Assembly: GCA_022571845.1 (NCBI GenBank)
Contig: JACZXB010000002.1
Location: 169,979 to 233,978 of the forward strand
DNA from: Candidatus Zixiibacteriota bacterium
Lineage (GTDB): Bacteria > Zixibacteria > MSB-5A5 > GN15 > FEB-12
Direction of reading: 5' to 3'
Length of the DNA stretch: 64,000 nt
Part shown: in pieces, positions 51,976-59,164 of the stretch
Position numbering within the stretch: the first letter of the stretch is position 1
How the letters are laid out: the number at the start of each line of letters is the position of its first letter
Program-made: the position numbers and the translations under genes
Notes under the pieces: model-generated
The model's input: only the letters and a program-made list of their open reading frames with translations
What the model was told of the DNA's origin: nothing
Databases searched by the model: none

Positions 51976-52467
51976 ATGTTAATAAACACGTTGAAATTCG
52001 GACCGCTTGAGATTCCGGAAAACAAAATTATTACCATGGCCAAGCCGGTACTTGGATTCGAAGAGTTGACCAAATACTGCTTGGTTGAACTTGAAGAATT
52101 TAAGCCGTTCATGTGGCTGCAATCGGTCAATGACCCGGCAGTGGCTTTTATTGTAGTTAACCCGGCAATCTTTTACAACGGCTATAGAATTGATATCAAT
52201 CCAAATGAAATCGCTGAAATAGAGGCCAAAGATCCAGCCCATATTGAAACCTACGTTATAGCCTCTGTCCCCAACGAGTGGGCCGATATGACAATCAACT
52301 TGCAGGGACCAATCCTGATTAATACAGAAAACAACAAGGCTAAACAGCTGGTGCTGGTCAATTCAGGCTACCGGATTAAACATCGGGTATTTGATGAAGA
52401 AGAAAAAGCTGCCATGACTACCGAAGAACGGTTAGAAGAAGTTCTGGAAGAACCGGTAGGAGTTTAG
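51976..52467 (+). CDS. fliW: Flagellar assembly factor FliW
   Basis: 'FGPLEIPENKIITMAKPVLGFEELTKYCLVELEEFKPFMWLQSVNDPAVAFIVVNP'. Confidence 0.96.
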   Translation: MLINTLKFGPLEIPENKIITMAKPVLGFEELTKYCLVELEEFKPFMWLQSVNDPAVAFIVVNPAIFYNGYRIDINPNEIAEIEAKDPAHIETYVIASVPNEWADMTINLQGPILINTENNKAKQLVLVNSGYRIKHRVFDEEEKAAMTTEERLEEVLEEPVGV

Positions 52468-52539: not shown

Positions 52540-54171
52540 TTGGAAAAGCATGAAAAAGCGCCAGGAAGGCAGCTTGAGACAGACAACAAGTCCCACGAGA
52601 AATTCATAAAAAACCTCAATAATTTACTTGAGAATAATCAACTGGCTGAAGCCTTACCGATTTTACATACCCTGGCCGATCAAAGCCCCGATGATCCTCA
52701 GCTTCGGGTAACTGCCGGATTGGTTGCCTTGAGTCTGGACAAACAGGATGAGGCCCGCCGCTCGTTTGAACTGGCGCTAAAAGCAGACCCTAAGAATATA
52801 GACGCTCTCTATAATAGTGCACTTCTGGCGATGTCCCGCGGAATGACGGACAGGGCAATTGAACTTTTTGAAAAGATTGCCTCTGTCAATCCGGAAGACG
52901 CCGATGTTTACAACGACCTGGCCGTAATCTGGATAAACAAAAGCAACATAGACAAAGTAAAAGAATGTTTCTCCAGGGCGATCGAGCTTAATCCAAATTA
53001 CACTCAGGCTAGAAAAAATGCAATGGAGTTCGCTACTGAGCATAAGCAGCAAGAATGGGGCAGGAAATTGCTTGATCAAAATAGAGCCTTACCCGGACTT
53101 TCAGAAGAAACTGTAATGGATATAGAATCATGGGAAAACAAAATCACTCCTGAATATTCTGACAATCCCACCGTAACAATTAGATCTGGCAAAGCGGTTT
53201 TAAGCGACCGCATTACCGCTAAGAAAATTGCAATATTTGCTAATCACAAAGCGTTTGTAATAGATATCATCAAACGCCTTGAAGATGACCATAACCAGAT
53301 TACGGAGTACTCGGCAGACTCCGGACAGAGCATGAGCGAACTGCTTAGCTCTGTAGACTTAGCCTGGTTTGAATGGTGCGATAATCTTGTTATAGAAGCT
53401 TCCAGACTTTCCAAAACCTGTCCGATAATCTGCCGCTTGCACAGCTATGAAGCTTTCACGGAGTTGCCGTCGCAGGTTAACTGGAAAAATGTCGACCATT
53501 TAATATTTGTAAATAAATCGGTCATGGAACTGGTTGGCGAAACTATTGCCGGCATAGTACCCAAGACCGTAATACACAATGGAGTGGACCTTGACCGCTT
53601 TACGATTCCGGAGAACAAGACCTATGGCAAAAAAATAGCCTCGGTAGGTTACATCAATTACAAGAAGAACCCAGCTCTGCTTCTTTATTGTTTCAAGAAG
53701 ATTTATGAATACGACCCGGAATTTACATTTCATATTGCAGGTCTGCATCAGGACCCGCGCATAAAGTTATACTTTGATAATTTTCTGGAAGAAAGTCCCC
53801 TGCCTATAGAATTCTGTGGCTGGGTAAAAGATATGCCGGAATGGTACAAAGATAAGGATTATGTAATCTCTACTTCTCTGTTTGAATCGTTTCATTATTC
53901 TATCGCCGAAGGCATGGCCAGCGGCCTCATGCCGCTTATTCATAACTGGTATGGCGCCAAACATTTATACCCCGAAGAGCACTTGTTTACCGACCCGGAC
54001 GCCTGCCTTGAACTCGTCAAGGAGTTCGAAATAAACGATAGCTCTAAACAGGCTCAGATAAATCGTAAGTTCATAAGTAACAGATACAATCTTGATGACA
54101 AGTTCAGCCAGATATCTCGCTTAATGAACAAAGTCGTCTGTGCAGACAGCAGAAAAATTGTCAGTGTTTAG
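52540..54171 (+). CDS. TPR-domain protein fused to GT4-like glycosyltransferase
   Basis: TPR 'AGLVALSLDKQDEARRSFELALKADPKNIDALYNSALLAMSRG'; GT 'VIHNGVDLDRF...ASVGYINYKKNPALLLYCFKKI...CGWVKDMPEWYKDKDYVISTSLFESFHYSIAEGMASGLMPL'. Confidence 0.88.
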   Translation: MEKHEKAPGRQLETDNKSHEKFIKNLNNLLENNQLAEALPILHTLADQSPDDPQLRVTAGLVALSLDKQDEARRSFELALKADPKNIDALYNSALLAMSRGMTDRAIELFEKIASVNPEDADVYNDLAVIWINKSNIDKVKECFSRAIELNPNYTQARKNAMEFATEHKQQEWGRKLLDQNRALPGLSEETVMDIESWENKITPEYSDNPTVTIRSGKAVLSDRITAKKIAIFANHKAFVIDIIKRLEDDHNQITEYSADSGQSMSELLSSVDLAWFEWCDNLVIEASRLSKTCPIICRLHSYEAFTELPSQVNWKNVDHLIFVNKSVMELVGETIAGIVPKTVIHNGVDLDRFTIPENKTYGKKIASVGYINYKKNPALLLYCFKKIYEYDPEFTFHIAGLHQDPRIKLYFDNFLEESPLPIEFCGWVKDMPEWYKDKDYVISTSLFESFHYSIAEGMASGLMPLIHNWYGAKHLYPEEHLFTDPDACLELVKEFEINDSSKQAQINRKFISNRYNLDDKFSQISRLMNKVVCADSRKIVSV

Positions 54172-54179
54172 GATGAGCA

Positions 54180-56732
54180 ATGTCTAAGAAGAAATCAGAA
54201 AAAAAGAAAAAGAGTCCAAAAAAAGGCAACTATCCCTCTCAGCACTTTGCCCAAAAAGCAGCTGTTTCAATTAATCCAAAAAAGCTCGAAAATGCGCTGC
54301 TCGACAATCCCAATGACTTGATTGCCGCTCTTTCACTTGCGGAGCACTATTATAATGTGAATCAAGAAACACGCATTCCGGCCGTTCTGAAGTCTATCGC
54401 AGTCAAGGATATAAAACCTCAAACAAACGAAAGGCTTAATTACTTCGTCTTATTGTCAATCGGCTATTCAAATAGCGGAGAGTTGCTGGAAGCTGAAAGA
54501 ATAATAGAAAGGGGATTGGAAGAATTCCCGGATTCAATTGATTTCCACTATATGCTTAGTTTTGTCAAGTTGTCATTGAGGGAATATGACAAGTCAATCG
54601 AAGCCGGCCACAGATTTCTATCTCTTTTATCAACGCAGCCAAAGTATCCGCCTTATTGCGGTATGACATCGCATCTGTCTCAATTGCACAATATAATGGG
54701 CAGCGCCTTTTTTGAGAAAAAAGAATTTGATAATGCCATAGAACAGTTTAAAAAAGCAATCAAGGTAGATCATGGCAACCATCTGCCATATCTGAATCTG
54801 GCTAAGCTGCATTATCACAGGAAAGAAAACGAAGCGGCAATCGCAGCAATTAAAGAAGGTCTCACCTTCTGCCGCCAGATAGATGAACTCAAAATGCTAA
54901 AGCAAACGGTCGAAAATTACCGCACTGTCTCTGCCTGCATGATTGTCAAGAACGAGGAAGAACTGCTGGAGGATTGCCTTAAATCTATCCGCAGCTGGGT
55001 TGATGAAATTATCATAGTAGATACCGGTTCCACCGATAAGACAATTGAAATTGCCGAATCATACGGAGCAAAAATCTTTCATCAGGAATGGGAAGGAAAC
55101 TTCTCTAAGCATAGAAACTATTCCATGGAACAGGCCACATCGGACTGGATTTTTGTCATTGATGCCGATGAACGCCTGTGCGAAGAAGACATACCCAAAC
55201 TTCAAGCGTTGATAAACTCAGACAATCATTCGATTGTTTCAATCAATGTTTACTCTGTCTACGGTGACAATCAGGAAATGACAACATTTTTGCCGTCGAT
55301 CAGGTTGTTCAAAAGAGATATGGAACTTCGCTACCAGGGCATCGTGCACAATCGTTTAGAATTTTCAGAGGACGCCTCAATCGTGCGCGCCGACGTTAAG
55401 CTTAATCATCTCGGCTATGATTTGAGCCCAAAGCGGATGAAAGCCAAATTTGAAAGATCCAAGACGCTGCTTGAAAAACAGCTCGAAGAAGACCCTGGCA
55501 ATGCCTTTGCCTTATATAATCTGGCTCAGCTTTATCGCGGGCGCTCTAAAGACGATCCAGCCAAATTTAGCGATGAGATTATAGAATTCGCCCAGAGAGC
55601 AATAGAAATTATCGATCCTGATGACTTACACACCCGAAATCTTCACCTGATGAGTCTGGACCAATTAGCCTGGGCATATTTTTATAAGAAAGATTACAAA
55701 GCAGCGCTGAAATTTGCCGAGAAAGCGCTGAGCCATAAGAAAGACTACCTGGACCCGTTGTTATTGCTCGGCCATATATACACTCATACTCAGGAAATTG
55801 ATAAAGCTATAGATTCATATAAAACATATCTGGACAGACAGGCCAAATACATCCCGACTTCAGAAACTGACAATATCATTCTTATCAACCCGGACAGCCG
55901 GGCAGCGGCATTCTACGGACTGGCGCTGATTTATGAATTAACTGATAATTTTAGCACTGCTCTGGAGTATTATCGTAAAACCGCAGACGTCAACAGCAGC
56001 CATCTTGATGTTCAAACTAGAATCGAAACGATGAAAGAGTCGCTAAGTGCAGAGCCGTCTGAGAGTCAAAAAGAGATTCTTGACGAACTATCTGAACTCA
56101 TAAACGGCAATCAAATCGAAAGCGCTGTTAAGCTGGTGGAGGATGCTGCCGGTCGCTCAGACTCACCAAAAGAGATTCTTGCATCAGCGGCACAGCTCTT
56201 TATGACAGCTAATAAGCAAACGCAGGCGATTGACTGCTACAAAAGAGCAATAGAAATAGATAATAGTGACCCCGCCATCTTAAATGACCTGGCCAACTGC
56301 TATTTCAAAATGAAACAGTATGAAGAAGCCAAAGGATATTATCTCCAAGCAGCAAATCTTAAGAACACCCCGGATATCGTATACAGAAATCTTGGACTAA
56401 CTCTCATCGGAACCGGGGAGCGCTCAGATTCATTAAAATATTTCGATAAGTATCTCGAGACAAACCGACAGGACCAGCAGATTGCTCGCATGGCAGCAAA
56501 TCTTCACGCCAACGATGGTCAATATTCCTCGGCAGTGTCTCATTATGAAACAGTTCTCGCATCAGACCCCTCAGATCATGAATCACTTTACAATTTGTCC
56601 GAATGCTACCTGCAAATGGGGCATATAGACTCGGCCAGGCTTGGTTTTGAACGCGTTCTGAGACTTGCTCCAGACTTCGCACAGGCCCAAAAACGGCTGT
56701 TTGAAATCACTGAAGTTGTGACTGAGGTTTAG
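54180..56732 (+). CDS. TPR-GT2-TPR glycosyltransferase
   Basis: GT2 'VSACMIVKNEEELLEDCLKSIRSWVDEIIIVDTGSTDKTIEIAESYGAKIFHQEWEGNFSKHRNYSMEQATSDWIFVIDADE' flanked by many TPRs. Confidence 0.9.
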   Translation: MSKKKSEKKKKSPKKGNYPSQHFAQKAAVSINPKKLENALLDNPNDLIAALSLAEHYYNVNQETRIPAVLKSIAVKDIKPQTNERLNYFVLLSIGYSNSGELLEAERIIERGLEEFPDSIDFHYMLSFVKLSLREYDKSIEAGHRFLSLLSTQPKYPPYCGMTSHLSQLHNIMGSAFFEKKEFDNAIEQFKKAIKVDHGNHLPYLNLAKLHYHRKENEAAIAAIKEGLTFCRQIDELKMLKQTVENYRTVSACMIVKNEEELLEDCLKSIRSWVDEIIIVDTGSTDKTIEIAESYGAKIFHQEWEGNFSKHRNYSMEQATSDWIFVIDADERLCEEDIPKLQALINSDNHSIVSINVYSVYGDNQEMTTFLPSIRLFKRDMELRYQGIVHNRLEFSEDASIVRADVKLNHLGYDLSPKRMKAKFERSKTLLEKQLEEDPGNAFALYNLAQLYRGRSKDDPAKFSDEIIEFAQRAIEIIDPDDLHTRNLHLMSLDQLAWAYFYKKDYKAALKFAEKALSHKKDYLDPLLLLGHIYTHTQEIDKAIDSYKTYLDRQAKYIPTSETDNIILINPDSRAAAFYGLALIYELTDNFSTALEYYRKTADVNSSHLDVQTRIETMKESLSAEPSESQKEILDELSELINGNQIESAVKLVEDAAGRSDSPKEILASAAQLFMTANKQTQAIDCYKRAIEIDNSDPAILNDLANCYFKMKQYEEAKGYYLQAANLKNTPDIVYRNLGLTLIGTGERSDSLKYFDKYLETNRQDQQIARMAANLHANDGQYSSAVSHYETVLASDPSDHESLYNLSECYLQMGHIDSARLGFERVLRLAPDFAQAQKRLFEITEVVTEV

Positions 56733-56774
56733 CAAGTTTTCTACAAATTATTCTCAGTTTTTTAGCTAAATTTA

Positions 56775-56801
56775 TTAAGATACTGGCGCTTTTGCCGATT
56801 A
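56775..56801 (+). promoter_or_regulatory. Sigma28-type flagellin promoter (TTAAGATA-N11-GCCGATTA)
   Basis: -10 matches GCCGATAA 7/8; N11 spacing to TTAAGATA; upstream of flagellin. Confidence 0.65.
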
Positions 56802-56998
56802 AATTCTTTGTAAAAGCAAAAAGTCTCTCAAGTTAGACTTCACACAATAGGAGGGGCAAACAGCTCACAGGGGTTTAAAGGAGTTTTAACTCTGACAGGA
56901 TAGTCATCAACATTGGAAGTGACATATACTAGCAAGCAACTAAACAACATTGAACGGACGGGATAAGGTAATCCCGCAAATCTCCAAGGAGGAGAAGA

Positions 56999-59164
56999 AT
57001 GTCACTAGCAATTAACCACAACATTGCGGCTCTGAATGCGCATCGAAATTTGTTGAACACAACAAATTCGCTGCAGCAGTCTATGCAAAGACTGTCGTCC
57101 GGTTTTCGGATCAACAAGGCATCCGATGATCCTGCCGGTTTGGTGATTTCAGAACAGTTCCGTGCTCAGATTGCCGGTCTTAACCGTGCCATCCAGAACT
57201 CGGAGGGTTCTATCAGCATGATCCAGACCGCTGAAGGCGCCCTGACCGAAATCAGCAGTCTGTTGATTTCGATGAGAGAACTGGCCATTCACGCGGCCAA
57301 CGAAGGTTTCAACTCAGCCGACCAGCTTGCTGCTGACCAGGCGGAAATTGACAATGCTGTCAAGACAATCGATCGTATCGCTGCCAATACGCAGTTCGGT
57401 TCGAAGAAATTGATTGATGGTTCAAATGCCAATACCGCTACTATCACCAGCTCAAACAGCTCCGGCATCACCATCAAAGAATCTTTCCTGAGTGACGGTC
57501 AGCATTCCATCACCGCCACCAAGACAGCAAGCTCAACCGCTTCGCTGAACACTACCTCACTCGGACTCAGCCTGCTCAATACGACAGGTGATCCGGTCAA
57601 CCTGACTGAAGAAATCCACAACGTTGACGTTGTGCAGGCTTCAGACGTAGCCAGCAAGCGTTCGGGAACCGTTACTCTGGCCGACGCCTTCGGCAACAAC
57701 CTGACACTCGCCGCCGCCGCTACCGTAGGCATGATTTCTTCAGGTGCAGTCGCCACAGCTACTGCCTCTCATGCCGGTAATTACACAATCACCATTAATT
57801 ATCAGGAAAATGGTGAATCACCAAGCGGTAACCAGACCTTTATAGTCGCGGTTGTCTCAGGTGATACGACTTCTACAATTGCAGCTAAACTCCAGACAGA
57901 AATCAACCTCAACACTGCCTTAGCAGGTAAAGTTGTGGTAACCGGTACTACTGCCGGCGCTTTGAGAATCAAATCTGCCAGCCTTGGCGCCCAGTTCTCT
58001 GTTCAGACACAGGCTTCAAGCACTACCGCTTCAGTGAGCCTGTTCTCGTTTAGCGCTCAATCATCCCGTGGTTCTTCAGCTAACGTATTGAACTATACCG
58101 TAACATCAGCTACACAGTCCAATACTACCGCTGACATTATAGTTGCTGCAGCTACATATACCTCAATGACATCTCTGGCCACAGCGATTGATACCGCAAT
58201 GGACACGGCTTTTGGTAAAGTTGCCGGTGATGCTGCAGTATCTGACTTTGATGTTGTTGTATACAATAACAATCAGCTGGAATTCCGTTCAAACGACGAA
58301 GGTTCAGCATACTCAATCAAGCTGAACGCTGGTCTTGCAGGATCAGGTAACTTACGTAATGCTCTAAATATGACCGAAGATCCGATTGCCAGTACTGGTC
58401 TTGATGCTTTGGTTTCATTCGATAACTTTACCAATACCATTACCAAAGTTAACTATGGCACAACCGGTATCGTTACTTTGAAGAATAAAGCAGACGGTGA
58501 TGTCGGACAGGGTACTGTTGACATGATTGTCAGCACCGCTCTTAATGGTATCAACTTAGGTAACTTGCTGCTTGATGTTAAAGCTGCCAAGTTTGACGTT
58601 CGTCTAAACGGTGGTCCGGCTACTTCTGTAACTGCCGGTAAAGAATTCACAATCTTTAACGCCGACCGCTCTGAGTCGCTGAAGGTTGTCTATTCTCTTA
58701 CTTCACAGGGTGGAACAGAGACAATCAACAATTTCGATCGTTCGCTGGTCTTCCAGATCGGCGCCAACGTTGGCCAGACAGCCAGCATTGGTATGAGAAA
58801 TATGTCTGCTTCCACACTCGGTACAGGTCTGCAGGGTAATTCATTCTCGTCTCTGTCATCGATTGATGTGACCACAGCAGATGGCGCTCAGGACTCCCAG
58901 TCTGTTATCGATGCAGCCATTAACGAAGTATCTACTGCACGTGGTACTCTGGGTAGTTTCCAGAAGAATACTCTGGAATCCAACTTGAGAAACCTGAGAG
59001 TTGCGGCTCAGAACCTGACTGCCGCCGAGTCTCAGATTCGTGATACTGATATGGCTAAAGAAATGTCAGAATTCACCAAGCACCAGATTCTGCTTCAGGC
59101 CGGCGTTGCTATGCTGGCTCAGGCTAATCAGGTGCCGCAGGTTATTCTGTCGCTCTTTGGTTAA
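56999..59164 (+). CDS. fliC: Flagellin (721 aa, enlarged central region)
   Basis: N-term 'LAINHNIAALNAHRNLLNTTNSLQQSMQRLSSGFRINKASDDPAGLVISEQ'; C-term 'LRNLRVAAQNLTAAESQIRDTDMAKEMSEFTKHQILLQAGVAMLAQANQVPQVILSLFG'. Confidence 0.97.
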   Translation: MSLAINHNIAALNAHRNLLNTTNSLQQSMQRLSSGFRINKASDDPAGLVISEQFRAQIAGLNRAIQNSEGSISMIQTAEGALTEISSLLISMRELAIHAANEGFNSADQLAADQAEIDNAVKTIDRIAANTQFGSKKLIDGSNANTATITSSNSSGITIKESFLSDGQHSITATKTASSTASLNTTSLGLSLLNTTGDPVNLTEEIHNVDVVQASDVASKRSGTVTLADAFGNNLTLAAAATVGMISSGAVATATASHAGNYTITINYQENGESPSGNQTFIVAVVSGDTTSTIAAKLQTEINLNTALAGKVVVTGTTAGALRIKSASLGAQFSVQTQASSTTASVSLFSFSAQSSRGSSANVLNYTVTSATQSNTTADIIVAAATYTSMTSLATAIDTAMDTAFGKVAGDAAVSDFDVVVYNNNQLEFRSNDEGSAYSIKLNAGLAGSGNLRNALNMTEDPIASTGLDALVSFDNFTNTITKVNYGTTGIVTLKNKADGDVGQGTVDMIVSTALNGINLGNLLLDVKAAKFDVRLNGGPATSVTAGKEFTIFNADRSESLKVVYSLTSQGGTETINNFDRSLVFQIGANVGQTASIGMRNMSASTLGTGLQGNSFSSLSSIDVTTADGAQDSQSVIDAAINEVSTARGTLGSFQKNTLESNLRNLRVAAQNLTAAESQIRDTDMAKEMSEFTKHQILLQAGVAMLAQANQVPQVILSLFG

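Follow-up and report, generated by a model that had tools for sequence, protein, structure and literature searches.

The closest described relative of the system discussed here is GmaR of Listeria monocytogenes, a flagellin O-linked N-acetylglucosamine (O-GlcNAc) transferase and MogR antirepressor in which a soluble family 2 glycosyltransferase (GT2) domain is fused to tetratricopeptide repeats (TPR). The sugar that GmaR puts on flagellin is N-acetylglucosamine, and recognition of flagellin has been proposed as the role of its TPR domain (PMC9638930). In the 64,000-nucleotide stretch of DNA analysed here (the window), from a Candidatus Zixiibacteriota metagenome-assembled genome (MAG), two genes between fliW and the flagellin gene encode TPR-glycosyltransferase fusions: a 543-amino-acid (aa) protein with a family 4 (GT4) domain and an 850-aa protein with a GT2 domain. 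We propose, with a probability of about 0.83, that these form a cytoplasmic flagellin O-glycosylation module, in which TPR arms dock on flagellin, the GT2 enzyme transfers a sugar and the GT4 enzyme extends it or serves extra sites.

Like GmaR, the 850-aa protein joins a soluble GT2 domain to TPR; GmaR is encoded in the Listeria motility locus, upstream of flagellin and one gene away, and the GT2 gene here is likewise close to flagellin. The two differ in that GmaR runs from an N-terminal GT2 domain through TPR and a linker to an antirepressor domain, whereas here TPR lie on both sides of the GT2 domain, and in that a TPR-GT4 partner is present, in part of the phylum only. GmaR-like GT2-TPR proteins are already known; what is new is that TPR flank the GT2 domain on both sides, that some members of the phylum have a TPR-GT4 partner, and that the system is conserved phylum-wide.

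FlmG of Caulobacter crescentus is a TPR and GT-B protein whose TPR arm binds flagellin (PMC7591256). The initial annotation of the window took FlmG as its precedent, but its layout (TPR, then GT-B) resembles the TPR-GT4 protein, by layout alone, and not the core GT2 protein; GT2-TPR beside flagellin is GmaR's design, and GmaR is therefore the better precedent. The donor for FlmG is pseudaminic acid; NeuB-model matches in the genome studied here are weak and partial (E 8e-11) and may belong to a related synthase. GT2-TPR proteins of Clostridium flagellar islands were independently predicted, in a 2026 survey, to be flagellin transferases (PMC13317340); these Firmicutes predictions, likened here by description, share the layout within a flagellar locus that holds flagellin and sugar-nucleotide genes. 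Maf flagellin glycosyltransferases modify flagellin in the cytoplasm before export, as we propose here; the Maf family (PF01973/PF20157) was matched in 0/133 genomes of the phylum (our survey sample) and by none of the window proteins run through Pfam, an absence that is suggestive only, because the N-domain model (PF20157) matched no control genome either. The glycocin S-glycosyltransferases SunS and ThuS act on small bacteriocin peptides at cysteine. They have the related GT2 catalytic domain of protein-directed transferases and a C-terminal helical region but, unlike the GT2 protein here, no flagellar context.

The features of the window that bear on this comparison are as follows:

51976..52467, + strand: fliW (PF02623, E 1e-36), the upstream edge of the proposed glycosylation slot
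52540..54171, + strand: TPR-GT4 fusion, 543 aa (Pfam); predicted accessory glycosyltransferase, start codon uncertain
54180..56732, + strand: TPR-GT2-TPR protein, 850 aa (Pfam, PDB and fold matches); predicted core flagellin glycosyltransferase with a GmaR/SunS-like catalytic domain
56774..56802, + strand: candidate sigma28 (FliA)-like promoter for the flagellin gene, read from the sequence (TTAAG, spacer, GCCGATTA)
56806..56998, + strand: leader of the flagellin gene; its 8 GGA motifs are candidate CsrA sites, and its 3′ end is the AAGGAGGAG Shine-Dalgarno sequence
56999..59164, + strand: flagellin, 721 aa (PF00669, E 1.7e-35; PF00700, E 7.9e-24), the proposed acceptor

The open reading frames (ORFs) and Pfam agree with the initial annotation in placing the two fusions between fliW and flagellin; the genes run head to tail, 8 nucleotides (nt) apart, and the GT2 stop lies 266 nt before the flagellin ATG, where about 270 nt had been given. 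The order in the window is flgG-flgA-flgH-flgI-flgJ-flgN-flgK-csrA-flgL-fliW-GT4-GT2-flagellin-fliD-fliS-fliT/flgN-like, in which Pfam covered fliW, both glycosyltransferases, flagellin, fliS and the FlgN-like protein, the remaining names being assigned from translations.

The GT2 protein accompanies flagellin in almost all flagellated members of the phylum. It was found in 98 of the 133 genomes and a flagellin-domain match in 110; 97 genomes have both, one (a 74% complete MAG) has GT2 alone, and 13 have the flagellin match alone, a group in which several genomes are incomplete or contain just FlgL (Fisher p 4e-15). Where the two genes share a contig (79 genomes), GT2 is co-oriented with and upstream of flagellin in 78 and lies within 1.5 kb of the end of the flagellin match in 73; in 54 of the 65 loci read, the GT2 stop falls 183-335 nt before the flagellin start. 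The flagellin loci of G042 and G098 are uninformative as to an upstream glycosyltransferase, the G042 contig stopping just past flagellin and the short G098 contig carrying no other recognised flagellar gene. The order flgK-csrA-flgL-fliW-[GT4]-GT2-flagellin-fliD-fliS recurs across the phylum, and so the arrangement is not due to chance. In the GT2 tree, 12 of 13 family labels are monophyletic (two being single sequences), and pairwise distances computed on its catalytic region track the distances of flagellin, FliD and FlgL (r 0.82-0.84, where permutations reached at most 0.20). Synteny, distance correlation and family monophyly together show that the GT2 gene is an old, vertically inherited, core part of the phylum's flagellar locus.

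Pfam finds TPR, Glycos_transf_2 (residues 251-383) and TPR again in the 850-aa protein, which we lay out as an N-terminal TPR arm (about 33-245), a GT2 domain (about 250-460, including D328-A-D330) and a C-terminal TPR arm (about 464-848). Its AlphaFold model (mean predicted local distance difference test score, pLDDT, 83) has the same plan, helical repeats on either side of a mixed alpha/beta domain at ~250-410. The catalytic domain is the best-conserved part in an alignment of 64 homologues: D328-A329-D330-E331 is invariant, the F-S-x-x-R-N region is invariant except for its serine (95%), and a V-H-N motif and H-x-G-Y are also conserved. Most of these motif positions appear in the GmaR and SunS alignments. 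In sequence searches of the PDB the top match to the catalytic domain was 22ao, deposited as GmaR (E 5e-36), followed by SunS (4e-20) and ThuS (2e-18), while Foldseek with the 850-aa model ranked ThuS, SunS and the OGT TPR domain high, alongside many TPR scaffold proteins. The domain also aligns (38% over 203 aa, E 9e-39, the significant alignment being confined to the GT2 part) with a 637-aa Listeria GT2-TPR protein, named ‘glycosyltransferase family 2 protein’, which we take to be GmaR from its length, domains and position in the motility locus. Judged from these matches, the GT2 domain is homologous to that of GmaR; the SunS-type NCBIfam model TIGR04195 scored 90 bits on the protein, below its cut-off of 350.

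The GT4 protein is the less constant partner. Pfam places TPR at ~28-163 and Glyco_trans_1_4 with Glycos_transf_1 at 362-497; the GT-B/GT4 domain covers about 225-533, with an EX7E motif at E449-E457. Both glutamates are invariant, and FESFHxS(I/V)AE is present in 24 of 27 homologues. Its exact N-terminus is uncertain, because the gene begins with TTG and the start sites of close relatives lie further upstream. The GT4 domain alone had no significant match in a PDB sequence search, and the AlphaFold model, built with five sequences, is unreliable over the catalytic half of the protein (mean pLDDT 55). A TPR-GT4 gene is present in 24 of 59 readable loci, the other 35 having GT2 without GT4, and GT2 is found in 38 of the 39 genomes where GT4 is matched strongly. 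The GT4-GT2 pair is not the conserved unit that the initial annotation supposed: GT2 is the core and GT4 is optional, nested within GT2-bearing genomes. GT4 probably adds a second sugar.

Of 69 loci, 45 have a sigma28-like site, TAA(A/G)-N13-17-GCCGA, ahead of flagellin, but only 2 of 71 have one ahead of GT2; the glycosyltransferase genes thus seem to form part of the earlier flgK-flgL-fliW unit, apart from flagellin. The flagellin leader is also unusual: across 70 loci it has a mean of 7.5 GGA motifs against 4.2 expected, which is not so for the leaders of fliD, GT2 and fliW. Since the locus also contains csrA and fliW, the GGA-rich leader suggests that translation of flagellin is controlled by CsrA-FliW.

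Families more remote from that of the window have a larger slot between fliW and flagellin, and in it are TPR-GT4-GT2 fusions (808-1243 aa), NAD-dependent epimerase/dehydratases, a 4,6-dehydratase and a PseB-like UDP-GlcNAc 4,6-dehydratase (UDP, uridine diphosphate), DegT aminotransferases (nearest model PseC), a formyltransferase-like protein, a hexapeptide-repeat acyltransferase and methyltransferases. Genes of these kinds serve to synthesise and modify nucleotide sugars. The organism of the window has the minimal version of the slot, and its donor sugar must come from elsewhere in the genome.

Other relatives lack catalytic parts. In G060 the GT2 slot (L066:6912-7874) encodes a TPR-only protein of 320 aa, in which the N-terminal arm runs straight into the final TPR block; the GT2 domain has cleanly gone, though congeners keep it, and in that genome no GT4 match reached E 1e-20. 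Compared with a congeneric sister species, its N arm shows 45% identity and its final TPR block 55%, while the same segments are 67% identical between glycosyltransferase-bearing sisters. The idea of full constraint on this TPR-only gene is weakened by its faster divergence, which its fliW and csrA do not share; because of that divergence the remnant may be decaying. TPR-only proteins also occupy the GT4 slot, directly upstream of GT2, in three genomes (L076:1886-2620 in G014, L091:4322-5020 in G038 and L109:5971-6597 in G094). On several occasions, then, TPR have stayed in place while the catalytic domain was lost (or had yet to be gained).

We infer a mechanism whose flagellin acceptor, TPR docking, O-linkage, sugar, order of transferases and operon structure would fit together as follows. 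Both glycosyltransferases, grouped with flgK-flgL-fliW and upstream of the late (sigma28) promoter of flagellin, would be made before their substrate, as the position of the sigma28-like site between GT2 and flagellin would imply. The TPR arms of the 850-aa protein would bind flagellin before export, and its central GmaR/SunS-like GT2 domain would place a sugar directly on side-chain hydroxyls in the exposed centre of flagellin; its nucleotide donor would most likely be UDP-GlcNAc, or else a different UDP-hexose. The 543-aa protein may then dock on flagellin by its own TPR, to extend the first sugar or to modify further sites. The role in flagellin glycosylation, which the initial annotation had put forward, is strongly supported by the synteny, the near-absence of GT2 without flagellin, co-inheritance, the intact catalytic motifs, GmaR homology and the sugar-nucleotide genes in the slots of relatives.

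Several observations weigh against this role. We found no biochemical or mass-spectrometric data for any Zixibacterium. The Ser/Thr content of flagellin is unremarkable: its centre (residues 161-640), whose richness had been offered as support, is 25% Ser plus Thr, but so is the middle of FliD from the same locus, and we reject this richness as evidence of glycosylation; the flagellin of G060, where the GT2 domain is lost, is as rich (23%) as those of its sisters. The window's own genome has a standalone GT2 at 45% identity over 112 aa. The GT4 domain has stand-alone relatives in loci of polysaccharide type. Similarly scoring GT2-TPR proteins occur in Bacilli outside flagellar loci (on a Pontibacillus plasmid), so that the acceptor is not proved by domain similarity alone. 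When relatives beyond the phylum were sought among plasmids, the matches were mainly enterococcal GT2 proteins, other Bacilli and Listeria GmaR.

Could these be generic polysaccharide or lipopolysaccharide glycosyltransferases that sit in a flagellar locus by happenstance? GT2 and GT4 are large, general families, and the stand-alone GT4-domain relatives adjoin nucleotide-sugar dehydrogenases; however, the position beside flagellin is near-invariant across families, GT2 is nearly absent where flagellin is, the two are co-inherited and TPR are fused in both genes, which makes this explanation very improbable. Inside the phylum, moreover, homologues are not consistently found in non-flagellar polysaccharide loci, the placement that the initial annotation had named as evidence against a flagellar role. 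It is rather unlikely that the TPR arms themselves act on flagellin, as chaperone, adaptor or regulator (compare the second function of GmaR), with glycosylation secondary or dispensable. The TPR-only proteins in the GT2 slot of G060 and in the GT4 slots of G014, G038 and G094 would fit such a role, as would the C-terminal part of GmaR, which is an antirepressor independently of GmaR's glycosyltransferase; but G060 is a single MAG with a remnant that may be decaying, and the DAD motif is invariant in all 64 aligned glycosyltransferase-bearing homologues. A broader version, which we offer tentatively and think somewhat unlikely, is that the TPR arms are a flagellin-handling module (an export chaperone, timing device or adaptor) into and out of which GT2, GT4 and other catalytic domains have repeatedly been inserted and lost, leaving TPR-only forms in at least four genomes.

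If flagellin is glycosylated as we propose, the division of labour between the enzymes could also differ: either GT4 initiates and GT2 extends, or each modifies separate sites independently. We regard this as possible though doubtful. Both proteins carry TPR arms, and FlmG, a GT-B and TPR protein, initiates on flagellin; set against this, the kinship with protein glycosyltransferases lies with the GT2 domain, and GT2 fits as the initiating enzyme because GT4 is nested within GT2 genomes and GT2 often occurs without it.

These results indicate that cytoplasmic flagellin glycosylation by GT2-TPR proteins, as described in Listeria, is ancestral to the flagellum of a whole uncultured phylum and not a scattered accessory; a search of the literature on Zixibacteria and flagella found no title or abstract describing flagellar glycosylation in the phylum. 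The natural series of variants (GT2 only, GT2 with GT4, fusions, full sugar islands, TPR-only) offers a way to ask how TPR arms pick flagellin and how glycans build up, and the TPR-only proteins in the slot may be a sign that the TPR arms have a function by themselves.

Some loci depart further from this pattern. The GT2-slot protein of G053 (L086) and G054 (L114) is ~1465 aa long with two successive GT2-protein matches, probably by internal duplication. In G120 a B12-binding radical SAM protein (L104:11231-12586) lies beside a PseB-like dehydratase and a TPR-glycosyltransferase protein upstream of flagellin, and an unusual sugar or flagellin modification is possible there. The slot of G124 has grown to ~13 kb, with a 1667-aa ORF (L056:6804-11807) that has a weak GT2 match and lies between flagellin and the GT2 gene, on the opposite strand to flagellin. 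In the single-contig genome G115 (L108 and L107), flagellin and GT2 are ~1.36 Mb apart on opposite strands; the GT2 ORF has just 658 aa, and flagellin is adjoined by a TPR fragment resembling the GT2 C-terminus, which suggests either that an inversion broke within the GT2 gene or that the genome is misassembled.

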